From a virus: DNA of 30,631 nt. The position numbers and the translations under genes were made by a program. Positions 3,756 through 29,938 of the stretch are shown here, piece by piece; within the stretch, counting starts at the first letter, position 1; each line of letters starts with the position of its first letter. Under the pieces are notes generated by a model. The model did no database searches. It saw only the letters and a program-made list of their open reading frames with translations, and was not told the origin of the DNA. The stretch covers positions 1 through 30,631 of IMG/VR virus record IMGVR_UViG_3300027833_001225; one strand, 5' to 3'.

Positions 3756-4325
3756 ATGAAACAAGAAGATTACTTTGCTAAAATAAAAGTAGATGCTACT
3801 AATCTCATAGATAGTTGTAATAAATGGATGACTCAATTTCCTGACTTGATTTATTCATACAGAACAGATTCTGACACATTAGTAGATGTAGCAGATACGC
3901 CCGATAAGGAGTTTGATAAATCGTTCAGAACATTTGATATGTGGCACCCTGAATTAGATTATACTCTTGCTAGTAACACTTTTTTAAAAAAGTTACACAA
4001 AAAATTCCCTATCAATAATATTGCAATAAACAATTTTCATCCAAACTTTTATTATAGGTTACACACTGATTGGAGAAGAGGTGTAGCAATAAACATGCTA
4101 ATAGCAGGCACAGATAGTCATTGTTTATTTGTAGACGATACACATTTTATAGAATTAGACTACAAGCCTGGTGAGATGTATTTGTTTAATACACAAAAGC
4201 CTCATACTATTACAAACTTCTCTGAGCAACGTACACTGTTTTCTATACAGTTTGTAGAAGGTAAAGATACGTTATCATATGATATGATATATGACTATTT
4301 AAAAAATAACGGGCTAGTAGATTGA
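3756..4325 (+). CDS. 2OG-Fe(II) oxygenase-like protein
   Basis: A 189-aa protein with the double-stranded beta-helix iron site: H103-T-D105 (RLHTDWRRG), distal H150 in a PGEMYLFNTQKPH stretch, and R159, which can hold 2-oxoglutarate. These enzymes use O2, Fe(II) and 2-oxoglutarate to hydroxylate proteins or small molecules in the cytoplasm. Members of this type are common auxiliary genes in T4-like marine phages, usually with unknown substrate. The start is an ATG just after a late promoter; there is little room for a strong ribosome site. Its stop overlaps the TTG start of the HD-domain oxygenase gene, so the two are probably made together. Confidence 0.7.
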   Translation: MKQEDYFAKIKVDATNLIDSCNKWMTQFPDLIYSYRTDSDTLVDVADTPDKEFDKSFRTFDMWHPELDYTLASNTFLKKLHKKFPINNIAINNFHPNFYYRLHTDWRRGVAINMLIAGTDSHCLFVDDTHFIELDYKPGEMYLFNTQKPHTITNFSEQRTLFSIQFVEGKDTLSYDMIYDYLKNNGLVD

Positions 4326-4858
4326 AATTAACAAACTTTAAAAACTTTCAAGAAAGCACAGCCAGGGACTGGCAGTTAATTGCTAAGGTCTATAAAAAGG
4401 ACAAAAAGAAACTTGTTAATAAATTTGTAGAACAATTAAAGTTATTAGAAGGCGACTTTGGTGGCTTTCCTATTTGTAGATACGAACATTGCTTACAAAC
4501 AGCAACAAGAGCATATCGGGCTGGCGAAGATGACGAATATATTGCAGTTGCATTATTGCACGATATAGGCGATACACTTAGCCCTGATAACCATGGCGAA
4601 GTTATAGGTGCTATGTTAAAACAATATATCAGCGAAGAAAACTATTTTTTACTAGTACATCACACTGATTTTCAAGGATACTACTATTACCAGCATATAG
4701 GTAAATCACGTGACCTACGTGATAAGTTCAAAGATAGTCCTCATTACGAACACACCGAACGGTTTTGCAGACTGTATGATAGTCAAAGTTTTGACGATTT
4801 GTATGAGTCAGAGTCGCTAGAGTTCTTTATTCCGTATATTACAAAACTCCTTAATTAA
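4322..4858 (+). CDS. PhnZ-like HD-domain protein
   Basis: A 178-aa protein starting with TTG at 4322, overlapping the stop of the 2OG gene. The metal ligands expected for the PhnZ/MIOX-type diiron oxygenases are present in order: H56 (YEHCLQ), H80-D81 (ALLHDIGD), H91, H113/H114 (LVHHTDF) and D153 (CRLYDSQ). The block from EH-LQ-A through ALLHD-G closely resembles the phosphonate oxygenase PhnZ as I remember it. PhnZ cleaves a hydroxylated phosphonate made by the 2OG enzyme PhnY, which makes the pairing here suggestive. An ordinary HD phosphohydrolase is the main alternative. The usual PhnZ Tyr/Glu gating pair could not be placed with certainty. Confidence 0.7.
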   Translation: MKLTNFKNFQESTARDWQLIAKVYKKDKKKLVNKFVEQLKLLEGDFGGFPICRYEHCLQTATRAYRAGEDDEYIAVALLHDIGDTLSPDNHGEVIGAMLKQYISEENYFLLVHHTDFQGYYYYQHIGKSRDLRDKFKDSPHYEHTERFCRLYDSQSFDDLYESESLEFFIPYITKLLN

Positions 4859-8838: not shown

Positions 8839-10560
8839 ATGAGTTGGCGCAAACATTTTACACCCTTTGACAATTCGGGTTTACCTTTAAACATTCAGTC
8901 AGGTGCGGATAAAAATGACGGCTCGTTCGGTGCAGCCGCAACAAGTAGATTTAATAGTTGGTTACCAGAAGTATACGCAGGAAGTCCTAATAGACTTATG
9001 CGTTATGTGCAGTATGATCAAATGGATTCGGATCTAGAAGTAAATGCCGCACTAGATACTATTGCAGAATTTGGCACACAAGAAAACGAGTACTCGGGTT
9101 TACCGTTTACTATTGACTTCTTATCGTCACCAAGTGATACAGAAGCAAAAATCATAGATAAAACATTACATAGTTGGGTTAGACTTAACAAGTTACACAA
9201 ACGTGCATTTAGAATGTTCCGTAGTACTTGTAAGTATGGCGATCAGTTTTTTATTAGAGATCCAGAAACATACGAATTGTACTGGGTTGATCCTGCAAAC
9301 ATTGAAAAGGTTGTTGTTAACGAAAGTGAAGGCAAAAAGATAGAGCAATACTTTATCAAAAACCTAGAAGCAAACTTTGCAGAGCAAGTAGCAACAAACG
9401 CAAGTGGACTACATGCAAGACCATATGGTAGTGGACAAGGCCTAACAGGCATAATGAGCCCTACTAATACAGTAAGCAACAATTACTTAACAGGATCAGT
9501 AGATGGTGCAGGCGAAGGCGTACCAGTTGATGCTAAACATGTTGTGCATGTTAGTTTAACAGAAGGCATGGATCATTCATGGCCTTTCGGCGTAAGCATA
9601 CTAGAACCAATTTTTAAAGTGTTCAAGCAGAAAGAATTGCTAGAAGACAGTATTATCATTTATCGTGTACACAGAGCACCTGAAAGACGTGTGTTCTTTA
9701 TTGACGTAGGTAATATGCCAGCCCACAAAGCACAGCAGTACTTAGAACGTGTAAAATACGAAGTACAGCAAAAACGTGTACCTAACAGCAAGGGCGATGG
9801 TAGCAGTGTAACAGACAGTGCATACAATCCAATGAGTATGTTAGAAGATTACTTCTTTGCACAAACAGCAGACGGACGTGGTTCTAAAGTTGATACACTA
9901 CCGGGTGGTGAGAACTTAGGCCAAATAGACGACCTTAGATACTTTAATAACAAACTATTACGTGGTTTGCGTATTCCTGCTAGTTATTTGCCAACAGGAC
10001 CAGACGATGGAAGTGCTACTTACAACGATGGCAAAGTAGGTGTTGCATACATTCAAGAATATAGATTTGCAAAGTATGTTGAAAGACTGCAAAAGCAAGT
10101 ACAAGAAGATTTAGATAGAGAATTTAAACTGTTCCTAAAATACAAAGGCATAGATATTGATAACAGCACATTTAGAATGTTGTTTAACAAGCCAATGAAC
10201 TTTAGTAGTTACAGAGAATTACAACTTAATACAGAACGTGCTCAGATGTTTAATCAAGTTGCAAACTTACCATACATGAGTAAGCGATTCGCTTTACAGA
10301 AGTATATGGGTTTAAGCGACAACGAAATGAAGCAAAACGAAGAGCAGTGGCGTGAAGAGAACGATTATCAGAAATATCAAGATAATGAAAAAGCAGCCGC
10401 ACTTAAGAACATAGGTATTAGACCAGAACCTAATGCCGCAGTTGATTTAGACGCAGAACCAGACCTTTCTGGGCTTGAAGATCCGACATTAGGCGGAGAA
10501 GACATAAATACAACTATAGACAATACAGTTCCACCAGCAGAAGGCGAGGGTTTAGTATAA
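8839..10560 (+). CDS. 20: Portal vertex protein gp20
   Basis: A 573-aa protein, slightly longer than T4 gp20 (524 aa). Recognisable portal features include the N-terminal stretch around NSWLPEVYAGSPNRLMRY, the DLEVNAALDTIAEFGTQ helix, the SILEPIFKVFKQKELLEDS segment, VHRAPERRVFFIDVGNMP, and RIPASYLPTGPDDG. The portal dodecamer forms the DNA entry vertex of the head and the platform for the packaging motor. It heads the head-assembly operon in the T4 order. Its stop overlaps the next start as TAATG. Confidence 0.93.
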   Translation: MSWRKHFTPFDNSGLPLNIQSGADKNDGSFGAAATSRFNSWLPEVYAGSPNRLMRYVQYDQMDSDLEVNAALDTIAEFGTQENEYSGLPFTIDFLSSPSDTEAKIIDKTLHSWVRLNKLHKRAFRMFRSTCKYGDQFFIRDPETYELYWVDPANIEKVVVNESEGKKIEQYFIKNLEANFAEQVATNASGLHARPYGSGQGLTGIMSPTNTVSNNYLTGSVDGAGEGVPVDAKHVVHVSLTEGMDHSWPFGVSILEPIFKVFKQKELLEDSIIIYRVHRAPERRVFFIDVGNMPAHKAQQYLERVKYEVQQKRVPNSKGDGSSVTDSAYNPMSMLEDYFFAQTADGRGSKVDTLPGGENLGQIDDLRYFNNKLLRGLRIPASYLPTGPDDGSATYNDGKVGVAYIQEYRFAKYVERLQKQVQEDLDREFKLFLKYKGIDIDNSTFRMLFNKPMNFSSYRELQLNTERAQMFNQVANLPYMSKRFALQKYMGLSDNEMKQNEEQWREENDYQKYQDNEKAAALKNIGIRPEPNAAVDLDAEPDLSGLEDPTLGGEDINTTIDNTVPPAEGEGLV

Positions 10561-10760
10561 TGAAAATAAATGAATTTTACGAACCTAGCAGAGATCAAGA
10601 AGCAATGCGTTCTGAGGAAGATACTAGAAAGTCTAAACTAACACTTAAAGAATTGAACAAATTAAGAAAAGTTAGAGAAATTAGCAGAGCAGAAGAAATA
10701 GAACATACAAAATTTGTAAAAGTTATGTATAAAGCTGGTGGCGAAGAGCCAGCACTGTAA
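10560..10760 (+). CDS. Small protein in the gp67/gp68 position
   Basis: A 66-aa, strongly charged helical protein (LKELNKLRKVREISRAEE), starting within the stop of gp20. T4-like phages carry one or two small prohead core genes (67 and 68) between 20 and 21, and this gene sits there. Similarity to either cannot be established by eye, so a prohead or core role rests on position. Confidence 0.6.
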   Translation: MKINEFYEPSRDQEAMRSEEDTRKSKLTLKELNKLRKVREISRAEEIEHTKFVKVMYKAGGEEPAL

Positions 10761-10915
10761 GCACACCCACATTTTCCAGAAAAGTCGCTTATGACTGTTT
10801 TGGTACCAAAAAAACACCATTATAACACATATTTTATCGATTGCTATAAGTAAATGGTAATCATGCAATTCTTATTGGCGTAAGTTTGCATTAAAAAACA
10901 ATTAAGGAGGCCACA
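10761..10915. other. 155-bp spacer with hairpins before the acidic core gene
   Basis: It contains a loopless palindrome TTTTGGTACCAAAA (about 10798-10811) and a late-promoter-like TATAAGTA (10845-10852). A stem-loop at 10863-10891 has ATGCAA pairing with TTGCAT and CTTA pairing with TAAG. A strong AAGGAGG ribosome site lies at 10904-10910. It is the largest spacer inside the otherwise compact head operon, so it may set the level of the core protein separately. Confidence 0.45.
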
Positions 10916-11647
10916 ATGTCTAAGAAGTTAGAATCAATATTAGAACTTCTCCTTGCTGAAGAAAACGAGAAAGCCGAAGAGTTGTTACATGAGTATGTCG
11001 TAGACAAAGCCCGTGAGCAATATGAAAGCCTACTTGATGATGAGGTAGAGGAAGAAGAAGTAAGTGAAGTAATTGACCAAAGTAATGACTTTGTTGATGA
11101 CATCACTACAGACGAAGACGAAATCAAAGCTGATGAAATTGGCGAAGAGGACGACGAAGAAAGCGACAATCCTTTTGCAGACGCAGAAGAATCAGAAGAC
11201 GAGTCAGAAGGTGAAGAAGACCTAGAAGACAAAGTTGATGATATCGCTGACGAACTAGAATCATTAAAAGCAGAATTTGATGCACTAATGGCAGACGGTG
11301 ATGAACCAGAAGCTGAGTTAGGTGACGAAGAAGAAGCAGAACTTGATATGGACGGTGAAGAAGAACTTGATTTAGAGAGTGTTGAATACGATCTAGATGA
11401 AGCTACAGACGAAGACGAAGACGAAGTTGTTGAAGAAGCAACTAAGTTATCTGACAACGTTGCTGCACCTAAAGCAGGCGAAGCAGATTCAACAGAATCA
11501 CCTTTAACTAAAGCACCAAAAGCAACTAAAGTAGCAGGCGCTGGTTCACCAGTAAAAGCAAAAGACGGTAGCGAAGGTGTCAAAGGCGAAAGTGCTAAAG
11601 ACAACACACCTACAGACAACATTAAAGTTGAGCCTAAAAAGGCGTAA
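10916..11647 (+). CDS. Acidic prohead core protein (gp67-like)
   Basis: A 243-aa, extremely acidic protein. The N-terminus (KLESILELLLAEENEKAEELLHEYVVDKAREQYESLL) matches the pattern of prohead core proteins of T4-like cyanophages. The middle is Asp/Glu-rich low complexity, and the last 80 residues are Ala/Lys/Pro-rich. T4 gp67 is much shorter (about 80 aa). Such proteins fill the prohead core and are degraded by gp21 during maturation. A strong ribosome site suggests high output. The long open frame on the opposite strand is a by-product of the GAA/GAC-rich codons. Confidence 0.7.
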   Translation: MSKKLESILELLLAEENEKAEELLHEYVVDKAREQYESLLDDEVEEEEVSEVIDQSNDFVDDITTDEDEIKADEIGEEDDEESDNPFADAEESEDESEGEEDLEDKVDDIADELESLKAEFDALMADGDEPEAELGDEEEAELDMDGEEELDLESVEYDLDEATDEDEDEVVEEATKLSDNVAAPKAGEADSTESPLTKAPKATKVAGAGSPVKAKDGSEGVKGESAKDNTPTDNIKVEPKKA

Positions 11648-11665
11648 GTAGGAGATTAGATTAAG

Positions 11666-12292
11666 ATGCAATCCAGAAAGTTATACGAATATTTGAATCC
11701 TAGTACTGCTAATATGCAGATCATGGAATCACAAGACGGTAAAGACCTTTTCATGCAAGGATTATTCATTCAAGGCGATGTAAAAAATCAAAATGGACGA
11801 GTATACCCAAAAGATGAAATTGCTCGTGCTGTTGAAAGTGTTCGTACACGTTTAGGCGAAGGCGAAACTGTAATGGGAGAGTTAGATCACCCAGAAGAGT
11901 TACAAATTAACTTAGACAGAGTAAGTCATATCATTACAGAAATGCATTGTGATGACGCTAATGGACTAGGCAAATTAAAAATTATAGATACACCCATGGG
12001 TAACATTGCGAAAGCATTGTTAAAAGCAGGGGCAAAGCTAGGCGTGAGCAGTAGAGGCAGTGGTAATGTAAATGAGTCAGGTAAAGTATCTGACTTTGAT
12101 ATTATAACAGTCGACATTGTGGCCCAGCCTAGTGCACCAGATGCTTATCCCAAGACTATCTATGAAAGTCTATTTAACATGAAAGGCGGTGCAATGTTGC
12201 ACGAATTAGCCGGACAAGTTACACACGACATAAGTGCAGAAAAACATCTGATAGGTGAGATACACAAACTTATCAGAGAATTAAAAATATAA
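11666..12292 (+). CDS. 21: Prohead core protease gp21
   Basis: A 208-aa serine protease of the T4 gp21 family, about the T4 length. The probable catalytic residues are H75 in GELDHPE, S128 or S129 in GVSSRGSG, and D150 in DIITVDIV. It matures the prohead by cutting core and capsid proteins after L/I-x-E motifs. The gene follows the acidic core gene by 18 bp, with a TAGGAGA ribosome site. Confidence 0.92.
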   Translation: MQSRKLYEYLNPSTANMQIMESQDGKDLFMQGLFIQGDVKNQNGRVYPKDEIARAVESVRTRLGEGETVMGELDHPEELQINLDRVSHIITEMHCDDANGLGKLKIIDTPMGNIAKALLKAGAKLGVSSRGSGNVNESGKVSDFDIITVDIVAQPSAPDAYPKTIYESLFNMKGGAMLHELAGQVTHDISAEKHLIGEIHKLIRELKI

Positions 12293-12311
12293 CAGGAAGT
12301 AGGAGACTACT

Positions 12312-13421
12312 ATGGCAGTGACATTTAAAGACCTAATTGAAGGAACAGATTTAACTTCTGAAGTTAAAGAGTCCTTACAAGAAGCATGGGAAGCCAAGGT
12401 ATCTGAAGCAAAAGAGCAAATGACAGCTGAACTCCGTGAGGAGTTTGCACAGCGTTACGAGCATGACAAGAGTCAAATCGTAGAAGCAGTGGACAACTTT
12501 ATCACTGATAAAGTAACAGCAGAAGTTGCAGAAATTGCAGAAGAAAAAGGTGCCTTAGCGGAAGACAGAGTCAAATATCACAAAGCCATTAGTGAACACG
12601 CTAAACTGTTGAATTCTTTCGTAACTGAAAGTTTAGCAAAAGAAGTTAAAGAACTCCGTGCAGACAAATCAAGAGTAGCAGAACATGTTACTAAACTTGA
12701 TGAGTTTATCACAGAATCTTTAGCATCTGAAATTGCTGAATTCCACGAAGATAAGAAATCATTAGTAGAGCAAAAAGTTAAAATGGTAAGAGAAGGCAAA
12801 GCACAATTAGCGGAAGCTAAGAAGAGCTTTATTTCTAAGGCTGCTAACTTAATTGAGAATAAAATCAATACAGTTATCACCGAAGAAGTCAAATCTTTCC
12901 GTGATGATATCACTAAGAGCCGTGAGAATGACTTTGGACGTCGAATTTTTGAATCTTTCGCTAACGAGTACAACACATCGTACTTAAACGAAAGCAAAGA
13001 AATTAAGACATTACAGAGAACACTCGCTGAGATGGAAACTAAGATTAACGAAGCAACAGACAGTGTAGAAGCATCGCAAGACGCAGCTAAACTTACTGAA
13101 AGCAAGTTAAGAATAGCAGAAGATCGTTACACTCGTAAAGAGACACTTAACGAACTAATGGCACCACTTGGCAAAGAGAAGAAAGAAATCATGTCAGACT
13201 TACTTGAAAGTGTTACCACTGAAAAACTAGAAGGTGCTTTTAACAAGTACTTGCCTAGCGTTTTAGATGGCGAAACACCTAGAGTGAAGAAGACATTGTC
13301 TGAATCAGTAATCAAAGAACATACTGGTAACAAAGAATCTGTGCAAACAGCTTCTGATGACGAAACAGATAATGTAGTCGAATTAGATTACATTAAAAAA
13401 CTAGCCGGACTTTCAAAATAA
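12312..13421 (+). CDS. 22: Prohead scaffold protein gp22
   Basis: A 369-aa, almost fully helical, Glu/Lys-rich protein with long coiled-coil stretches, located between the protease and major capsid genes exactly as in T4. It is longer than T4 gp22 (269 aa) and has an internal near-repeat (HAKLLNSFVTESLAKEVKEL and HVTKLDEFITESLASEIAEF). It forms the prohead core around which gp23 assembles and is then cut up by gp21; several L/I-x-E sites are present. Confidence 0.85.
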   Translation: MAVTFKDLIEGTDLTSEVKESLQEAWEAKVSEAKEQMTAELREEFAQRYEHDKSQIVEAVDNFITDKVTAEVAEIAEEKGALAEDRVKYHKAISEHAKLLNSFVTESLAKEVKELRADKSRVAEHVTKLDEFITESLASEIAEFHEDKKSLVEQKVKMVREGKAQLAEAKKSFISKAANLIENKINTVITEEVKSFRDDITKSRENDFGRRIFESFANEYNTSYLNESKEIKTLQRTLAEMETKINEATDSVEASQDAAKLTESKLRIAEDRYTRKETLNELMAPLGKEKKEIMSDLLESVTTEKLEGAFNKYLPSVLDGETPRVKKTLSESVIKEHTGNKESVQTASDDETDNVVELDYIKKLAGLSK

Positions 13422-13436
13422 CAGGAGTAATTAATA

Positions 13437-14576
13437 ATGGCAAATTTATTTGAAAGCAACTGGTCCGCAACCAAAGAAGCATTGCTTGAAGGTGTTTCTG
13501 GAAACAGAAAATCTTCATTGGATGTGGTCCTCGAAAATACGAAACGCTATTTGTCAGAGGCCGCAACTACAGGTGCAACAGGTGCAGGTTCAGTCGCAAC
13601 TTTAAACAAGGTAATGTTACCTTTAATCAGAAGGGTTATGCCTTCAGTAATAGCTAACGAGCTAGTCGGTGTTCAACCAATGACTGGTCCAGTTGGCCAA
13701 ATACATACACTAAGAGTCCGTTATGCGGAAACTGGTGGTGGTGCAACAGCAGGTGACGAGGCTTTAAGTCCTTTCAAACTTGCTTCAACTTATGCAGGTT
13801 CTCCAGATGCTACAGCAGCAGCTGAAGGTAATCCTGGACGTAAGATGAGCATCCAAATCTTAAAAGAAACAGTGGAAGCTAAGACTAGACGTCTAAGTGC
13901 TCGTTGGACTTTTGAGGCAGCTCAAGATGCAGAATCTATGCACGGCGTTGATGTCGAAGCAGAAATTATGCAGGCTCTAGCTCAGGAAATCGTAGTTGAA
14001 ATCGACCAAGAAATTATCGGTTCATTACGTTCATTAGCAGGTGCTGGTACTACTTTAGACTTTAGTTCTTTAAGTGGTCAATCAGTATACGTTGGTGACA
14101 GACACGCAGCTTTAGCTATTGAAGTTAATAGAGCAGCAAACAGAATCGCAGCAAGAACACGTCGTGGCGCTGGTAACTACATCGTAGTATCTCCAGAAGC
14201 ATTGACAATCTTGCAAAGTGCATCAACTTCAACGTTCGCAAGAACAACTGAAGGTTCTTTTGACGCTCCTACAAACACTAAGTTTGTTGGAACATTAAAC
14301 GGAACAATCAAAGTATTCGTAGACAACTACGCAGCTGACGGTACTAAAGTACTTGTTGGTTACAAAGGTTCAAGCGAGTCAGATGCTCCAGCATTCTACT
14401 GTCCTTATATCCCATTAATGAGCACAGGTCCAGTTATGGATCCTAGCACATTTGAACCAGTAGTTAGCTTTATGACACGTTATGGTTATAAAGAACTAAC
14501 AAACACTGCTTCATCTTTGGGTAACGCAGCAGACTACGTTGACGCAATTACATTGTCCAACATAGCATTCCAGTAA
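13437..14576 (+). CDS. 23: Major capsid protein gp23
   Basis: A 379-aa protein of the gp23 family, shorter than T4's 521 aa but in the range of compact marine relatives. Family-like blocks include LPLIRRVMPSVIANELVGVQPM, RLSARWTFEAAQDAESMHGVD, the YIVVSPEAL segment and the C-terminal YCPYIPLMSTGPVMDPSTFEPVVSFMTRYG. It forms the head shell. A protease site of the L-x-E type occurs at YLSE41-A, so about 40 residues may be removed on maturation. An AGGAG box precedes the ATG and a strong terminator follows the stop. Confidence 0.94.
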   Translation: MANLFESNWSATKEALLEGVSGNRKSSLDVVLENTKRYLSEAATTGATGAGSVATLNKVMLPLIRRVMPSVIANELVGVQPMTGPVGQIHTLRVRYAETGGGATAGDEALSPFKLASTYAGSPDATAAAEGNPGRKMSIQILKETVEAKTRRLSARWTFEAAQDAESMHGVDVEAEIMQALAQEIVVEIDQEIIGSLRSLAGAGTTLDFSSLSGQSVYVGDRHAALAIEVNRAANRIAARTRRGAGNYIVVSPEALTILQSASTSTFARTTEGSFDAPTNTKFVGTLNGTIKVFVDNYAADGTKVLVGYKGSSESDAPAFYCPYIPLMSTGPVMDPSTFEPVVSFMTRYGYKELTNTASSLGNAADYVDAITLSNIAFQ

Positions 14577-14600
14577 GCCTTAAAACTTATAAGAATAGGA

Positions 14601-14628
14601 AAAAGCACTCTTCGGAGTGCTTTTTTTT
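14601..14628 (+). terminator. Strong intrinsic terminator after gp23
   Basis: GCACTC-TTCG-GAGTGC followed by eight T, with A-rich DNA upstream. The UUCG tetraloop makes this very stable. The same hairpin and T tract recur at 25562-25586. Confidence 0.92.
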
Positions 14629-14733
14629 GACTTAAATATCAGTATCTAAATTACCTCAACATTTATACACGGTGTGAACTTAACAGGCATTACAATATGC
14701 TATAATCAAGCATTAAATAATATGTACAAACAC

Positions 14734-14762
14734 TTGACATCATTGCACTTTTTGTGTATAAT
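14734..14762 (+). promoter_or_regulatory. Consensus sigma-70 promoter
   Basis: TTGACA (14734-14739) and TATAAT (14757-14762) are both perfect and separated by the ideal 17 bp. The expected start of transcription is near 14769, giving a leader of about 68 bases before the porin-like gene. Other transcription units in the window carry late-type boxes instead, so this gene should be read by unmodified host RNA polymerase. Confidence 0.85.
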
Positions 14763-14836
14763 ATAACCATGCCGTGGACAAAAGGTAGGACAATTCTGTC
14801 TCTATTTAGAAGCCACTGTAGAAAAAGGAGGAATAA

Positions 14837-15484
14837 ATGAAAACTTTATTCAATATAGAGAATGGATTCAAAGCACTAGTAATTATACTATTGTCGATGA
14901 TCGCATTCAATGCCGATGCGGCAAAATGGAGCGGAGAAGCAGGTTATGCAAATGACTATGTATTCCGTGGAATATCTCAAACTCAAGGCGCAAGTTCTGC
15001 TTTCGGATCTATTGATTTAGATTTAGAGAACGGTATTAATGCTGGTGTTTGGGTAGGTCAAGTAGACTTTTCTGGTAGCGATGCTAGTGAAGAAATCTAC
15101 TCTTACATTTCATATAGCAAAACTTTAAGTGATGCTGTATCTGTAAGCGTAGGCTACGGTGATTACACATACGCAGGAGATTCAAGTTTAAATGGATCCG
15201 AGCAGTATATTTCCGTTAATGTAAAAGACTTCGGTCTTACACATGTAATGGGTAATGACACCTACAACGATTATACAAGACTAAGTTATACTGGTTTTGA
15301 TATTGTTGATATAGCATATGGCATGCAAGACGGTGTTGGAGACAATTTAATGTTTTTTAGATCTTTTGATTTACCTTTTGGTGGATTAGAAGGTTCAGTA
15401 GCATATATTGACTTCACTGCTGATGACAGCAGTTTACTACAGGACGAAGACCAGTTTGTCTTTGCTGTAAGTAAATCATTCTAA
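14837..15484 (+). CDS. Outer-membrane porin-like protein (TorF/Gcw_chp family)
   Basis: A 215-aa protein with a signal peptide ending ...MIAFNADA, then the mature start AKWSGEAGYANDYVFRGISQT, the hallmark of the Gcw_chp/TorF putative porin family. Alternating beta-strand sequence runs to a C-terminal Phe (VFAVSKSF), the usual signal for the outer-membrane assembly machinery. An AGGAGG site lies 6 bp before the ATG. The gene stands alone between two strong terminators with its own sigma-70 promoter, a cassette layout typical of a moron. A role in changing the host surface (superinfection exclusion, receptor masking, nutrient uptake) is inference. Confidence 0.8.
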   Translation: MKTLFNIENGFKALVIILLSMIAFNADAAKWSGEAGYANDYVFRGISQTQGASSAFGSIDLDLENGINAGVWVGQVDFSGSDASEEIYSYISYSKTLSDAVSVSVGYGDYTYAGDSSLNGSEQYISVNVKDFGLTHVMGNDTYNDYTRLSYTGFDIVDIAYGMQDGVGDNLMFFRSFDLPFGGLEGSVAYIDFTADDSSLLQDEDQFVFAVSKSF

Positions 15485-15500
15485 GTATACTAACTTAGCG

Positions 15501-15538
15501 AAATTTACCCCAAAGCGAAAGCAGAGGGGTATTTTTTT
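15501..15538 (+). terminator. Intrinsic terminator after porin-like gene
   Basis: TACCCC (15506-15511) pairs with GGGGTA (15526-15531), with an inner GC-GAAA-GC turn, followed by seven T. A second small inverted repeat, CTAAGT/ACTTAG, overlaps the gene stop at 15481-15498. Confidence 0.85.
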
Positions 15539-15574: not shown

Positions 15575-15582
15575 GATAAATA
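15575..15582 (+). promoter_or_regulatory. T4-like late promoter
   Basis: GATAAATA, 38 bp before the ATG of the 1350-aa structural gene and just after the porin terminator. Confidence 0.6.
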
Positions 15583-15620: not shown

Positions 15621-18600
15621 ATGGCAAAACGCACAGTTATAGCAGCAGATGAAGAGTTACTGGTACAAGGTACGCTCACAGTCACGGGAAATGTTACCCA
15701 GGTAGAATCAACGCAACTAGTTAACAGGTTAGAATCAGATGAACTTGTTATTAATGCTGACGGTGATGATGTTACGTCAAAACTTATCCTAAAAAGTAAC
15801 ACAACTCAAGCAACTATATCGTATAACCATACTGCTGGTGTTATTGAAATAGACAAAAACATCACATTTACTGGTGCAAGCCCAAGTTTAACAACAGACA
15901 TTGTCGGTGACGTTACAGGTGATGTAACTGGTGATGTAACTGGTACTGTTAGCAGTATTGCTAATCATACTACTTCTGACTTAACAGAAGGCAGTCGTCT
16001 ATACTATACAACTAATAGAGCTAACGCAGATTTTGATACAAGACTAGCAACTAAAGACACTGGCGATTTAGCAGAAGGCGGCAATCTTTATTATACTAGT
16101 GCCAGAGCAGATGCTAGAGTTAACTTGCAAACCGGTAGCAACTTAGACCTAAGTCAAAAAACTACATCGGATTTAGCAGAAGGTACAAATTTATATTATA
16201 CTCAGGGCAGATTCGACATAGCCTTTGGTAATAAGACAACAGCAAATTTATCAGAAAATACTAACTTATACTTTACAACTACAAGAGCTAGACAAAGTAT
16301 AAGTCATGCAGATACAGGCGGCGACGGAAGTTTATCATATGATAGCGGCACAGGTGTAATAACTTACACAGGACCGAGTGCTAGTGAAGTAAGAGCACAT
16401 TTTAGTGTTGGTACTAACAGCGGTGACGGTGATTTAAGTTATGCAAACGGTGTATTTGATTACACAGGTCCAACAGCAGCAGAAACAAGAGCTCACTTTA
16501 GTGCAAGTAACGGCGTTTCTTTAAGCAACGGTGCATTCCAAGCAGTTGAGAGCGAAATACAACATGATAGTTTATCCGGCTTTGTAACAAACGAACATAT
16601 TGACCACAGTGGTGTTTCATTAACAGCAGGTGCAGGTCTTACAGGTGGTGGTGATATCACTGCAAGTAGAACATTTAATGTTATAGGTGCTAATGGTATC
16701 ACAGCGAATGCAAATGATATTGAAATAGATACAACAGTAGTTGTAGACAGATCAACAGATCAAAGTATTGCAGGTGTTAAGACATTTACAGGCAGTGTAG
16801 ATCTAACAAGTGCAACTACAACAGCAGTAACCCAAGCAAACACAGACAACACTACTAACGTTGCTACTACAGCCTATGTTAAAACCGTTGTTGGTGATTT
16901 GATAGATGGTGCACCTGGTGCATTAGATACATTAAACGAATTAGCAGCCGCACTAAATGATGACGCAAGTGCCGGTACTAAAATAACAGATAATACAACT
17001 AGAATTACTACACTTGAAGGCGTAACAGTTTCTACAGGTAACGGACTAAGTGTAGATAATAGTGCAATACTTAGTAGCCCTACATTAACAACAGACGATA
17101 CTTACATTAAAAACTTGTTTAGTGCAACAGATGCAGGTGGTGATGGTTCGTTTAGTTATACTAACGGAGTATTCACATACACTGGCCCAAGTGCTAGTGA
17201 AACAAGAGCACACTTTAGTGGTAGTACAGGAATAACATTAAGCAGTGGTGCAATAAGCATTACTAACACAGCAGTTACAGCAGCAAGTTATGGTAGTGCA
17301 ACAGCAATACCAACTTATACTGTAAACGCACAAGGACAACTTACAGCGGCCGCTGATGTAAACATAGCAATACCGCATACGCAAATCACAGACTTTGACG
17401 CAGAAGTTGGTGCAAGAATAGATGCAGAACTAACTGGAGGAGACGGAATTGATTACACTGCTGGAGATATAGCAGTAGACTCCACAGTTGTCAGAACTTC
17501 AGGTAATCAAGCACTTGCAGACACTAAAACATTTACCGGAGCATTAGTAACCCCAAGCAGTTCATCTACAACAACTGGTGCAATATATCATGACACTAGT
17601 GCTAACAAAGCATACATTTATGTAGGTGGTGTTGCAAGAGAAATTACTCCAGCAGTTGATGTTGGTGCATTAGAAGATGTCGGCGCAACAGGTACAGACA
17701 TTTACGCAGGTGATAGAGTTGACGGTGCAACAACATACGCAGGTATTAAAAGTATAGCAGACGGCACATACTCTACATTATCAGATTCTGCAAACGTTAT
17801 CACAATAGACGCAGACATTACTGCAATACGTGGAGCATTTAGTGCCGTAGACAATGCAGGTGATGGAACATTTACATATAACAGTACAACTGGTGCATTT
17901 AGTTATTCAGGTGTATCCCAGAGTCAAATTAGATCAGAGTTTAGTGCTAGTGGAGCCACATTAAGTTATAACAACGGTACCGGCGCATTTACAAGCACAG
18001 CAGATAATTATAATTCATGGAAGTTTGCAACACCTACTACAGGAAACGTAGTTGTTGCTAGTGGAGACTTAGTTAACTTTACTGCAGGTTCCGGTATTGC
18101 AATTAGTAATTCGGGCAAAACAATTTCAATTACAAATACTAACGCTGCAGATATCACAGCAGTTACAGCAGGCACTGGTTTAAGTGGTGGTGGTACAGCA
18201 GGTGCAGTTACACTTAATCTCAATGCAAGTACAAGTCTTGTAACCGAAGGCACAAATTTATATTATACAGATGCAAGAGCAGATGCTAGAATTTCAAATG
18301 CAATACTAGATTCAGATACATTTACTGGGGCAACCGCAACTAACATACCATCAGCAGAATCAACAAAAGCATACGTTGATACAGCGGTACTTGGCGTAGT
18401 TGGTGGCTCGCTAGATTTAAGTTCTAAGTCAACTAGTGATTTAGCAGAAGGTACAAATTTATATTATACAGATGCAAGAGCCAGAGCGGCAGTAAGTGCA
18501 ACACTTGGTACAGCAGGTTATACAGAAAGCACAGGTGTGTTTAGCATACCAAGTACCACAGCACATATTTCAGAAGGTACTAATTTATATCACACAACAG

Positions 18601-19673
18601 CAAGAGCAAGAGCAGCTATAAGTGCTGGTGGTGATTTATCATACAACAGCACAACTGGTGTAATTAGTTATACTGACCCATCACCTAGAACTGATGCTAC
18701 AATCAGAGGTTTGTTTAGTGCAGGTGGAGACATTTCGTACAACAGTTCAACTGGTCAGTTTAGTTTTACAGATTCAGATAGAAATGATGCTACAATCAGA
18801 GGTTTGTTTAGTGGTGGAACCGGTATTACATATAACAGCACATCTGGTGCGATTAGTTTAACAGACACTGGATATGTAACAGGTGTTACAGCCGGCACTG
18901 GTTTAAGTGGAGGCGGTACTTCAGGTACAGTTTCACTAGCAGTTAGTGGCTTAACAGTAGCAGAATTTGCAGGCAGTGCAATCCAATTAAGTTCAGAAAG
19001 TTATGTAGACAACAATACATCACTAATGACCTCAGCGGCTATTAGCGATAAGATCGAAAGTTATGGTTATTCAACAACAGTTGGTGACATTACAGCAGTA
19101 ACAGCAGGCTCCGGTTTAACAGGTGGAGCAACTAGCGGAGGTGCAACATTAAATGTAGGCGCCGGAAGTTATATTGTTGTAGCAGCCGATACGGTAGCAG
19201 TTGATGCAACAAGTGCAAACTCAGCAAGTAAAGTTGTAGCCAGAGACGGCTCAGGTAACTTTAGTGCAGGTGTTATTACAGCAACAGCAACCGCAGCAAG
19301 ATACGCTGACTTGGCAGAGAAATACGCAACTGATACAGATTACGAATACGGCACAGTTGTTGTGTTTGGAGGCGAAAAAGAAGTTACTGTAACAAGCGAA
19401 AGCAATTCACCAAGAGTAGCAGGCGTTATTAGTACAGATCCTGCTTACATGATGAACAAAGATGCAGAAGGACAATACGTTGCATTACGTGGACGAGTTC
19501 CGTGTAAAGTAATTGGCCCAGTTGCAAAAGGTGATGTACTTGTGACATCAAGCAGACCAGGCTTTGCAGAAGCAGCAAGCGACCCACATTTTGTAGGCGT
19601 TGCATGTTATGTAGGTAAAGCAATTTCAAGCATAGACACCCCATCCGAAGGCGTTATCGAAATTATGGTATAA
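15621..19673 (+). CDS. Large repetitive tail fibre/adhesin-type structural protein
   Basis: A 1350-aa Ser/Thr/Gly/Asn-rich protein. It contains many degenerate copies of a unit like [17 protein letters not shown] followed by [23 protein letters not shown], as in marine T4-like phage fibre and structural proteins. The C-terminal 150 residues ([52 protein letters not shown]) form a domain shared with the 1084-aa protein. Such proteins probably trimerise into beta-rich fibres that touch the host. Host binding is inference. The N-terminus begins [23 protein letters not shown], resembling virion-anchoring ends of related proteins. Confidence 0.65.
18786..19319 (+). repeat. Shared C-terminal block, copy 1
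   Basis: This 178-codon block aligns without gaps to 24651-25184 (constant offset 5865). By eye about ten residues differ, while many synonymous positions differ. It covers the segment from [11 protein letters not shown] to ARYADLAE. Confidence 0.85.
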
Positions 19674-26207: not shown

Positions 26208-26510
26208 ATGGAAGAGATTGTCAACGCAATAAACGACTATGGATTCCCAGTAGTAATGAGTGTTGGCCTAGGATATTTTGTGTATTACATTTGGTGGTTT
26301 ATTGGAGAAAAGATAGACCCAGCATTAGAAGAAATGCACATGGCTTTAATTAAAGTAATAGATAAAACTCGCATGCTAGATCAAGACTTGATCAGACTAC
26401 AACAAAAAGTAAATGTCGTATTAGAATATAAAGCAAAAGAACAAATTATTAAGGACGCACAGAACACAGAGCTTTTAAAAAACATAGAGGAAGGATTAAC
26501 ACATGATTGA
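26208..26510 (+). CDS. Second small membrane-anchored coiled-coil protein
   Basis: A 100-aa protein with a membrane segment at about residues 13-33 (FPVVMSVGLGYFVYYIWWFIG), followed by a long charged helix. It resembles the 98-aa protein in length, an M-x-EI start, a G-x-P before the membrane segment and a helical tail. It overlaps the csgF start by eight bases (ATGATTGA). It may assist export, form a holin-like pore or anchor the curli apparatus to the inner membrane; none of these can be chosen from sequence. Confidence 0.6.
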   Translation: MEEIVNAINDYGFPVVMSVGLGYFVYYIWWFIGEKIDPALEEMHMALIKVIDKTRMLDQDLIRLQQKVNVVLEYKAKEQIIKDAQNTELLKNIEEGLTHD

Positions 26511-27027
26511 TAACAAACACAAAGATACACCTTTACTAGTTTTAGGTTATATCTTGTTAGGTATGATAGTACTGCTATCTACTACCGCAACTGCAGATTC
26601 ATTAACGCACAAATTTAAGAATCCTAGTTTTAGTGGTATTGGAACTGGAGCACATTACCTAACGATAGAAAATCAAGAAAGAACTCGTAGGCAAAAGATC
26701 AAAGACGATATTGAATCAGCTTTAAAGCAAGCAGAACGAGAAGACTCGAACAGCACAATTAACAAATTCATTAGAAATTTAGAGAGCAGAATATACGCCC
26801 AAATCTCTAAGGGATTAGTTGACAGCATGTTTTGTGATCCAGCTACTGTAGTAGAGTGTACGGGTTCAGACTCAGGCGACTTTACAATTGAAGGTAATAA
26901 TGTAAGTTACCAAATAGTTATATCTGACGATGGATTAGAAGTAATGAGACTTACTATTGTTTCTCCAGACGGCACAATAACTGAGATAGAGATACCGATC
27001 GGCATCGGCAGCATTGGCGGCGGGTAA
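26503..27027 (+). CDS. csgF: CsgF-like curli assembly protein
   Basis: A 174-aa protein with an N-terminal signal/anchor (LLVLGYILLGMIVLLSTTATA). The predicted mature start DSLTHKFKNPSFSG matches the CsgF signature (E. coli FQFRNPNFGG), the segment that plugs into the CsgG pore. The C-terminal beta part (YQIVISDDGLEVMRLTIVSPDG) also fits CsgF. In curli systems CsgF couples the secretion pore to nucleation of the fibre. The middle is longer than in E. coli CsgF (138 aa) and includes a charged helix. The residue matching E. coli N17 is Thr or a gap. It directly precedes csgG with TAATG overlap. Confidence 0.85.
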   Translation: MIDNKHKDTPLLVLGYILLGMIVLLSTTATADSLTHKFKNPSFSGIGTGAHYLTIENQERTRRQKIKDDIESALKQAEREDSNSTINKFIRNLESRIYAQISKGLVDSMFCDPATVVECTGSDSGDFTIEGNNVSYQIVISDDGLEVMRLTIVSPDGTITEIEIPIGIGSIGGG

Positions 27028-27980
27028 TGATGAAGTATTTAGGAATCGCACTTCTATGTGTAGGCTTCTTGTCAGGCTGTGCAAGCATGGCTCTACCTGG
27101 CGACAAAAACTGCACCACTGATTTCCTCCAATGCATCGAAGAACCAAAAGAAGTAGAATTACCTACATTCAAAAAATTACGACAGTTACCACCGGCTGAA
27201 ACAAGACCGATTGTAGCAGTTTATCAATTTGCCGACTTAACTGGACAACGTTTAAGTTCTGGCGGAGCGGCTAGTTTTAGCACAGCCGTAACACAAGGTG
27301 CTAAAGCCTTACTAATAGACGCACTCAAAGCAGCAGGCGCTGATTCAGACCCGCAGGGTACTTGGTTCAGAGTTGTTGAAAGAGGTCTGGGTCTAGACAA
27401 TCTTGTCCGAGAGCGACAAATAATTCGTAGCACACGTGATAGTTATGCTACTGAGAAAGCTCCGCCACAAGATGTACAACCATTATTATTTGCAGGAGTG
27501 ATACTAGAGGGTGGCGTTATTGGCTACGACTCTAATATTGAGACTGGCGGTAACGGTGCTCGATACCTAGGTATTGGCACAACTAATGAATATAGGCGTG
27601 ACAGTGTTGTAGTTTCGCTTAGAGCAGTTAGTGTACTTACTGGCGAAGTGATATTAAACGTACAGACATACAAAACTATTCTCAGTGTTGGGATGGGTGG
27701 TGACGTATTTAAATTCCTTGATATGGATACGCGACTACTTGAAATTGAGAGTGGTATGACAGAGAATGAAAGTGTAACTTGGGGTGTTAGATCAGCGATC
27801 GAAGCAGCCGTTTATGCTCTCATCGAACAAGGAGATGAAAGAGGTTTCTGGAAAATAAACTACCCATTAGAGTTGGGTAACACTACAACAGGTACTATCG
27901 ACGGTACTGACACAGATTTAGAAACGGGTAATGAGCCCTCTGATAGCCAATTGGCTTTAGAGGATAATGAGAATGATTAA
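27027..27980 (+). CDS. csgG: CsgG-like curli secretion pore lipoprotein
   Basis: A 317-aa protein with a lipobox LSGC at residues 15-18. CsgG landmarks include VAVYQFADLTGQ, FSTAVTQGAKALLIDAL, the ERGLGLDNLVRERQIIR helix, the GGVIGYDSNIETGGNGARYLGIG strand region, TGEVILNVQTYKTILS and the SAIEAAVYALIEQGDERGFW helix. CsgG forms the nonameric outer-membrane channel for curlin export. The constriction loop differs from E. coli: the YPASNF motif is replaced by roughly GGAASF, keeping Phe56 but not Tyr51 or Asn55. The last 35 residues are an acidic Thr/Asp/Glu tail. ATG at 27030 is an equally good start. Confidence 0.92.
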   Translation: MMKYLGIALLCVGFLSGCASMALPGDKNCTTDFLQCIEEPKEVELPTFKKLRQLPPAETRPIVAVYQFADLTGQRLSSGGAASFSTAVTQGAKALLIDALKAAGADSDPQGTWFRVVERGLGLDNLVRERQIIRSTRDSYATEKAPPQDVQPLLFAGVILEGGVIGYDSNIETGGNGARYLGIGTTNEYRRDSVVVSLRAVSVLTGEVILNVQTYKTILSVGMGGDVFKFLDMDTRLLEIESGMTENESVTWGVRSAIEAAVYALIEQGDERGFWKINYPLELGNTTTGTIDGTDTDLETGNEPSDSQLALEDNEND

Positions 27981-27999
27981 TCATAAAATGGAGAATAAA

Positions 28000-28797
28000 A
28001 TGAAGACTTTTTCGAGCAAGTTATTTGCAGGTGTCTTCGCTACGGTTTGCTTTTTTACTGGTAATTTAGCTAGTGCTGATAATGAAGTATTGATCGATCA
28101 AATAGGTGACAACTTAACTTTAACTGTGTTACAAGCCGGTTATGGAAACAGTTTGTCCGGCGATACAAGTCAGGGAACTGATCTAACTTTAACAGGTGGA
28201 TCATTAATCATTGACCTTATACAAGATGGTAATCTTAACGAAACTTTTGGTTCGTGGGTACTTGACGGTTCGGGTTCAAGTGTGATTGACTTATATTTCC
28301 AAGGCGATAGTAATATTTGGGATATGAATATTGGTGCTACAGGCAGTGGTGACTATACTGACATCTTATCAAACATAATAGGTTCTAGTAACTTATTTGA
28401 TATAGATATTGGTGGAAACGCAGTTGCTGAAAGTACAAATATGGATCTTTACATACTAGGTGATAGAAATGACTTTTCAACAAGTTTTACTAACAGCAAA
28501 GTATGGGCAGCAGGTGGTTCAGTTAATAATAGTACTGGTACACAGACCATGGCAGGCATAGTTATAGATTCAAGCAACAATATTTGGAACTTTGATGTTA
28601 CAGGCGACGACAATGCATTCGCAACAAAACAGGCAAGCAATGACGGTAATAGCATGACAGTAGAACTCATGGGTTCAGATGGAGACTTCCAGCTGATACA
28701 GAACATGACATCTACATGTACACCAGCATGTGCTGGAGTTATCAATTTAGATATTGATAGTGAAAATGCATCAGTCAGTGTTGTTCAGCAAGACTAA
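28000..28797 (+). CDS. Curlin-repeat protein (CsgA/CsgB-like)
   Basis: A 265-aa protein from the ATG at 28000, chosen because a GGAG box lies 6 bp upstream and the signal peptide then fits (MKTFSSKLFAGVFATVCFF...LASA). An in-frame start at 27967 exists but adds an unlikely leader. The mature part has degenerate curlin repeats of the Q-x-G-x-N type: LIDQIGDNLTLTVLQAGYGN, LIQDGNLN, YFQGDSN, ILGDRND, VTGDDNAF, LMGSDGDFQLIQ. It ends SVSVVQQD. Curlins are secreted through CsgG and self-assemble into amyloid fibres. The spacing and length are less regular than E. coli CsgA (151 aa), so fibre formation is inference. Confidence 0.8.
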   Translation: MKTFSSKLFAGVFATVCFFTGNLASADNEVLIDQIGDNLTLTVLQAGYGNSLSGDTSQGTDLTLTGGSLIIDLIQDGNLNETFGSWVLDGSGSSVIDLYFQGDSNIWDMNIGATGSGDYTDILSNIIGSSNLFDIDIGGNAVAESTNMDLYILGDRNDFSTSFTNSKVWAAGGSVNNSTGTQTMAGIVIDSSNNIWNFDVTGDDNAFATKQASNDGNSMTVELMGSDGDFQLIQNMTSTCTPACAGVINLDIDSENASVSVVQQD

Positions 28798-29938
28798 GTG
28801 GCTTTTGCTACTTAGTTGCATTGCAACAAGTTCAATAAATGCCGCTGAAAATATCGGCGGCATACTTGAACAATCTGGTTCCGTAGGTAAAATATCTAGA
28901 ACAACTGGAGAAACTTTACAAGCAGAATTACAGACAGACATTGTTAGTATGGACGAGGTAGAAACTGCTAACGGTAGATTAAAGATTAAATTTATAGACG
29001 ATACGCAAGTTAGTCTAACAGAAAATACATACATGGAAATTAACGAGTATGTGTTTGACCCAGACCCTAATAAAAGCAGGATGGCTTTAAATTTTGTGTC
29101 AGGAACAGCAAGATTTGCAACAGGCGGATTAGGACTTGTAGCAAGAGAGAATATAACAATACAAACTCCCACAGCCAGTATAGGCATAAGGGGAACAGAT
29201 TTTACTACCACAGTTGATGAACTAGGTAGAAGTTTGGTAATATTATTACCAGACGAAGATTGCACAGATAGAGTAGCACTAGAAGAAGGGTGTGCTCCGA
29301 GTGGAAGTATAACAGTTACTAACGCAGGTGGTACGCAAGTATTAGACGAAGCGTACCAAGCAGTAATGGTAAGCACATTTGAAACTATACCTACTGCACC
29401 TGTTAAACTAGTAAACTTAGATTTAAATATGATAGACAATATGTTTATTGTAAGTGAGCCAGCAGAAATTACCGAAGCAGAAGAAGAGCAAGCATCAGAA
29501 TTAAAAGGCGGTGGCGGAATGCTAGACTTTGACGGACTAGATCAAGACTTTTTAGATACTGCTACACTAGATGATAATACAGCAAACAATTATGAATTTA
29601 GCGAATTAGACATTGACTTTTTAGATGTAGAATTCTTAAACGATTTGCTAGATGTGCTAAGTGATGATATAGATTCACTAGCAGAAGAAAATACAGCCGC
29701 AGGTGGTGATAGACTAATTGGAACAAAGTTCGGTAACGATCCAGAGACACAGTTTAATACATTTCCTGACTATGATGGCAAAGTGTTTTTTCTTAGACAA
29801 GTTGGAAACAAAGTAGGAATAAAATTAGCACAAGGTGCAAAGGCACGAATTACTATATATGACGATGATACAGGAGAAACTTTGTTATGCTTGAACAGTT
29901 GTGATGGCGTATACATAAGTATTACACAAAATGATTAA
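28766..29938 (+). CDS. Exported FecR-domain protein
   Basis: A 390-aa protein. The ATG at 28766 lies in the last 32 bases of the curlin gene and is followed by a signal peptide (SKTKWLLLLSCIATSSINA). Residues of about 25-170 carry a FecR-type domain: GSVGKISRTTGETLQ, NGRLKIKFIDDTQVSLTENTYMEINEY, and ENITIQTPTASIGIRGTDFTTTV. The rest is acidic, with repeated DFLDT/DFLDVEFLND-like elements, and a C-terminal beta domain with two Cys. FecR domains occur in envelope signalling and in exported structural proteins. A sensor, anchor or cap of the curlin fibre is possible; the operon position between two curlins favours an extracellular role. Confidence 0.75.
   Translation: MHQSVLFSKTKWLLLLSCIATSSINAAENIGGILEQSGSVGKISRTTGETLQAELQTDIVSMDEVETANGRLKIKFIDDTQVSLTENTYMEINEYVFDPDPNKSRMALNFVSGTARFATGGLGLVARENITIQTPTASIGIRGTDFTTTVDELGRSLVILLPDEDCTDRVALEEGCAPSGSITVTNAGGTQVLDEAYQAVMVSTFETIPTAPVKLVNLDLNMIDNMFIVSEPAEITEAEEEQASELKGGGGMLDFDGLDQDFLDTATLDDNTANNYEFSELDIDFLDVEFLNDLLDVLSDDIDSLAEENTAAGGDRLIGTKFGNDPETQFNTFPDYDGKVFFLRQVGNKVGIKLAQGAKARITIYDDDTGETLLCLNSCDGVYISITQND

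Follow-up and report, generated by a model that had tools for sequence, protein, structure and literature searches.

Between the major capsid gene and the fibre genes of a T4-like phage lies a single gene for a putative outer-membrane protein, and the question is what a gene of this kind does there and when it would be expressed. The DNA analysed, here called the window, is a linear IMG/VR fragment of 30,631 bases (record IMGVR_UViG_3300027833_001225) from a marine T4-like phage infecting bacteria; 92% of it is coding. The portal and prohead genes and gp23 occupy positions 8839-14576, and fibre genes follow from 15621 onward. The gp23 of the window shares 68% identity with that of the PA5oct-type Pseudomonas phages, the nearest isolates. 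Three other regions were noted: at 1025-2308, an exported 427-aa protein that weakly matches cytochrome c (CxxCH), which is unusual in a phage; at 3756-4858, a 189-aa ORF and, behind it, an HD-domain protein similar to PhnZ-type oxygenases that degrade phosphonates, scoring under the equivalog cut-offs; and at 26503-29938, a run of CsgF, CsgG, curlin-like and FecR-domain genes, which is the partial curli cluster described for pelagimyophages and phage Melnitz (PMC7029224, PMC9004378). The features of the porin locus are listed in Table 1.

Table 1. Elements of the porin locus and its flanking genes (window coordinates)
Feature	Position	Strand	Evidence
Major capsid protein gp23 (flanking gene)	13437..14576	+	PF07068, E 1.3e-97
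gp23 terminator hairpin with T-tract (upstream insulation)	14600..14628	+	-17.9 kcal/mol, z -6.1
Sigma70-type promoter, TTGACA-17-TATAAT	14734..14762	+	12/12; kept in all promoter-type relatives, some with small departures
Predicted two-helix leader hairpin with GACAAAA internal loop	14769..14820	+	Folds, two-sided pair changes
Shine-Dalgarno AGGAGG, outside the hairpin	14826..14831	+	Sequence, conservation
TorF/Gcw_chp-family outer-membrane porin (predicted), 215 aa, signal peptide, C-terminal Phe	14837..15484	+	Family profiles
Cassette terminator, TACCCC...GGGGTA then T7	15506..15538	+	-13.6 kcal/mol, z -3.8
Late promoter motif of T4 type, GATAAATA, belonging to the fibre gene that follows (marks the cassette boundary, outside the cassette)	15575..15582	+	Motif
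Tail-fibre-like protein, 1350 aa (flanking gene)	15621..19673	+	Profile matches

The original prediction assigned the protein to the TorF/Gcw_chp family, and two profiles agree, both above their curated cut-offs: TIGR02001 (E 4e-20, 72.3 bits against 47.15) and PF09694 (E 4e-11, 43.7 bits against 24). The matches span residues 25-161 of the 215 encoded between the ATG at 14837 and the stop codon at 15482-15484, and account for roughly 50-60% of the profile lengths. No relative was found by sequence in the PDB, and PHROGs holds no family for the protein. Given its family membership, the protein is predicted to form an outer-membrane beta-barrel. The dN/dS of the porin, compared between the window and a relative with the gene at the same junction (L005), is about 0.2, indicating that the gene is under purifying selection.

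The promoter consists of TTGACA (14734-14739) and TATAAT (14757-14762), separated by 17 nt. Only 0.015 perfect sites of this form are expected per window in first-order Markov sequences. Since a second perfect copy, presumably due to chance, lies at 319-347 within a GIY-YIG-like ORF, the motif alone is weak evidence, and it is conservation in other phages that gives the porin promoter its weight and makes it credible. Promoter, leader hairpin, ribosome site and porin are kept together in 13 phage loci of two genomic settings, in part of which a similar terminator also follows the porin. In L002-L007 the promoter is retained at the same gp23-fibre junction, and in L008-L012, L116, L123, L124 and L137 promoter, leader and ribosome site are retained between unrelated flanks, where a few promoters show one or two departures or a spacer one base longer or shorter. 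Behind the L010 and L116 porins, which have such unrelated flanks, a similar hairpin was found 3' of the gene. More distant phage porins (L126-L134) are not preceded by this type of promoter. The perfect promoter, the strong AGGAGG site (five bases ahead of the ATG) and the terminators on both sides of the gene, all named in the original prediction, were thus recovered; the 5'-leader hairpin and the late-type promoter of the fibre gene had been missed in it.

Late-type motifs of the form [AGT]ATAAATA occur seven times in the window, always between genes and in six cases 24-81 bp upstream of one; the scan found none ahead of the porin. In the phages of the second setting the neighbours of the porin, ClpX-like, ferritin-like, nucleotidyltransferase and HNH genes, form an auxiliary region, and the 110-kb record of this group contains seven perfect TTGACA-17-TATAAT sites, all on one strand. 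The second-group records tested are fragments and yielded no gp23; one of the group (G009) has a T4-type DNA polymerase. The 110-kb contig of the group (L100-L105) carries, besides the porin, genes for an ammonium transporter, a SufBD-type protein, a SufS-like class-V aminotransferase, a ketoacyl synthase and ClpA-/ClpX-like proteins. Because the porin lacks a late motif and in other phages the same unit sits in an auxiliary region where such promoters are plentiful, we infer with good support that it would be expressed early. The early timing proposed in the original prediction is thereby strengthened, as a reading of sequence signals and their setting. The arrangement also suggests that expression of the porin may be independent of the flanking late genes.

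The transcript is predicted to begin with a leader of about 68 nt, whose hairpin starts six bases past the -10 box, at the predicted +1. The outer helix pairs 14770-14777 with 14813-14820 and the inner one 14783-14792 with 14797-14807, GACAAAA forming the 5' side of the internal loop between outer helix and inner hairpin. The minimum-energy fold has the same form in all 12 different leaders despite differing stem letters. Two-sided exchanges occur at outer-helix positions 3-8 (at position 4, for example, C-G, A-U and G-C), as read from predicted folds and hence biased towards structure. In a model-fitted alignment of the leaders, which carries the same bias, 76.9% of cells pair; shuffled alignments gave 67.3% and slid ones no more than 47%. 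The covariation score exceeded those of all 500 shuffles. A covariance model (R1) trained on eight leaders recovered the leader 5' of the held-out porins L116 (61.7 bits), L124 (56 bits), L123 (40 bits) and, weakly, L137. In about 690 kb, including bacterial homologue loci and other phage contigs, R1 found no leader except upstream of these porins; the leader RNA was likewise absent from 30 bacterial homologue loci. No Rfam family matched the leader above its gathering score, and a minus-strand match to STnc370, below cut-off, covers merely the gp23 terminator region. The predicted leader structure is thus supported by covariation. The AGGAGG would stay outside the hairpin, whose probable role is to stabilise or control the mRNA. 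A further-reaching idea is that the leader is an RNA of a new kind that acts in cis, as a sensor or a binding site for protein and more than a stabiliser, moves between phages within the promoter-RNA-porin-terminator unit and tunes the dose of porin to the state of the host; we regard this as rather unlikely.

Comparison of 57 distinct gp23 junctions bears on how the gene came to lie where it does. The porin is missing from about 44 of them: 34 span 103-159 bp and about 10 more run directly into another type of fibre. The site is empty in L028, whose gp23 is 97% identical to that of the window and which has the same terminator and the same TTGATAAATAGTT ahead of the fibre gene; a terminator occupies this position in junctions without cargo. 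The terminator ahead of the insert and the late promoter behind it are therefore ancestral, and the insert, lying between them, brings a terminator of its own. Judged from these junctions, the porin is an insertion between genes that are adjacent in relatives, its presence being variable at this position, one of the points raised with the original prediction. Other cargo was found at the same place: a 385-residue lipoprotein-like protein with its own terminator and a TTGACA-17-TATTAT promoter (L029), a 124-residue secreted protein (L031), a 54-residue protein (L053-L057) and, between gp23 and the porin in L005-L007, an SGNH-like gene recognised by motif (no Pfam match). This SGNH/GDSL-like gene (L005:5088-5798), present in three relatives, is preceded by a late-type motif, AATAAATA. 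In marine T4-like phages the junction between gp23 and the fibre may therefore be regarded as an insertion site for envelope genes. With a promoter of its own, terminators on both sides and a position in a variable junction, the predicted stand-alone, insulated cassette within the late region, readable by a host-type polymerase, fits the data.

The best reading is that the cassette is a moron, an autonomous single-gene unit placed between the gp23 terminator and the late promoter of the fibre gene. Shortly after the DNA enters, unmodified host RNA polymerase would read the consensus sigma70 promoter without need of the phage late system; the transcript would open with the conserved hairpin described above, the AGGAGG left free; and the porin, to judge from its family and signal peptide, would leave the cytoplasm through Sec and be assembled into the outer membrane by BAM as a beta-barrel. 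We put the probability of these three steps jointly at about 0.7, a figure that excludes the purpose of the gene. The added barrel would then remodel the host surface.

An alternative origin for the same arrangement is recent capture of a host gene that still runs on its bacterial promoter and has no role in the phage. The promoter is indeed of host type, and the family is common in bacteria: of 398 Pseudomonadota genomes sampled, 130 have homologues. In a tree that includes 30 bacterial homologues, however, 21 of 22 phage porins fall in one clade (support 99/97), in which the porin group of the window nests with the second-group L010, L116 and L123; the phylogeny that the original prediction called for thus separates phage from bacterial porins. 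The best bacterial matches are far weaker, the leader RNA is confined to the phage loci as compared with 30 bacterial ones, and the gene is carried by several phage lineages at a dN/dS of about 0.2, so that recent capture is largely refuted. Between the window and L005 the dS of the porin is 0.83 and that of gp21-gp23 0.18-0.28, indicating that the cassette moved independently of its flanks. Among 50,697 phage records no true phage has a porin of this kind; the two matches were bacterial chromosome pieces filed as phage. One search of phage records gave nothing but a mislabelled Acinetobacter chromosome contig: L172 (CAKLQH020000037.1), filed as 'Acinetobacter phage MD-2021a', looks like a piece of bacterial chromosome. 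Of two genome-contig searches for relatives, one yielded none and the other two weak Caulobacter ones. In the openly accessible library searched, no report of a phage TorF/Gcw_chp porin was found, and the word 'porin' is absent from the main text of PMC7029224 and PMC9004378.

That the protein instead belongs to the virion or to the late products, as a structural membrane protein or one involved in lysis would, and is merely placed in the late region, is suggested by its location between gp23 and the fibre and by distant phage relatives that carry the gene without such a promoter. The sigma70 promoter, the lack of a late motif, the flanking terminators, the signal peptide and the absence of the gene from most close relatives that share the virion genes make this improbable. 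More serious is the proposal that the porin is an auxiliary gene for nutrient uptake, whose early product makes the outer membrane more permeable to ammonium-related or other small nitrogen compounds and thereby helps the infected cell to feed virus synthesis; its anatomy is that of the moron, and the difference lies in purpose alone. Bacterial homologues adjoin P-II and ammonium transporter (Amt) genes in 3 of 20 loci, amidohydrolases (in several loci) and other transport or amino-group genes lie near them, and one second-group phage with the cassette has an ammonium transporter gene at another place in its genome. That is, however, 1 of 18 phage records (many of them fragments), with no such gene near a porin, and a general link between phage porin and ammonium transporter was rejected; the junction cargo of relatives is, as far as seen, unrelated to transport. 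We consider nutrient uptake less likely than not. Because other exported proteins occupy the same junction, and because morons are known for such habits, we tentatively favour, at slightly under even odds and by a small margin over uptake, a change of the cell surface that protects the infected cell against competing phages.

Single genes with their own sigma70 promoter and terminator, lying in a late operon region and encoding an outer-membrane product, are known as the morons lom and bor of lambdoid phages. The porin cassette resembles them in all these respects, its product being a predicted one, but its carrier is a marine phage of T4 type, in which it lies between the terminator of gp23 and a late promoter; its protein comes from an unrelated family, and its 5' leader is structured and conserved. 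Lc of phage PA-2 (nmpC-type) is likewise an outer-membrane porin encoded by a phage and is associated with altered adsorption of phages; it is a 16-stranded OmpC-type protein of a temperate phage, whereas the mature TorF/Gcw_chp protein has roughly 187 residues. For the leader, a counterpart is the E. coli ompA mRNA, which has a 5'-terminal hairpin and a free ribosome binding site; the phage leader would match it as a 5'-terminal hairpin on the mRNA of an outer-membrane protein, although its role is a proposed one. The CsgGF 'curli pore' genes of pelagimyophages and methylophage Melnitz (PMC7029224, PMC9004378), also present in the window at 26503-27980, are another case of marine T4-like phages adding an outer-membrane pore, but differ in family and location. 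With the putative TorF porins of Pseudomonadota (TIGR02001/PF09694) the phage protein shares an SDYVFRGxSQT-type motif, a signal peptide and the above-cut-off match, whereas phage members are mostly shorter and form a separate clade, and 13 phage loci have the phage-specific promoter and leader. The locus thus offers a phage-borne outer-membrane porin family, found in none of 50,697 phage records, whose promoter is conserved and whose leader RNA is new, as well as a testable case in which a lytic marine phage may alter the surface of its host soon after entry. Morons with outer-membrane products are already known; new here are the different porin family, the conserved leader RNA and the insertion site.
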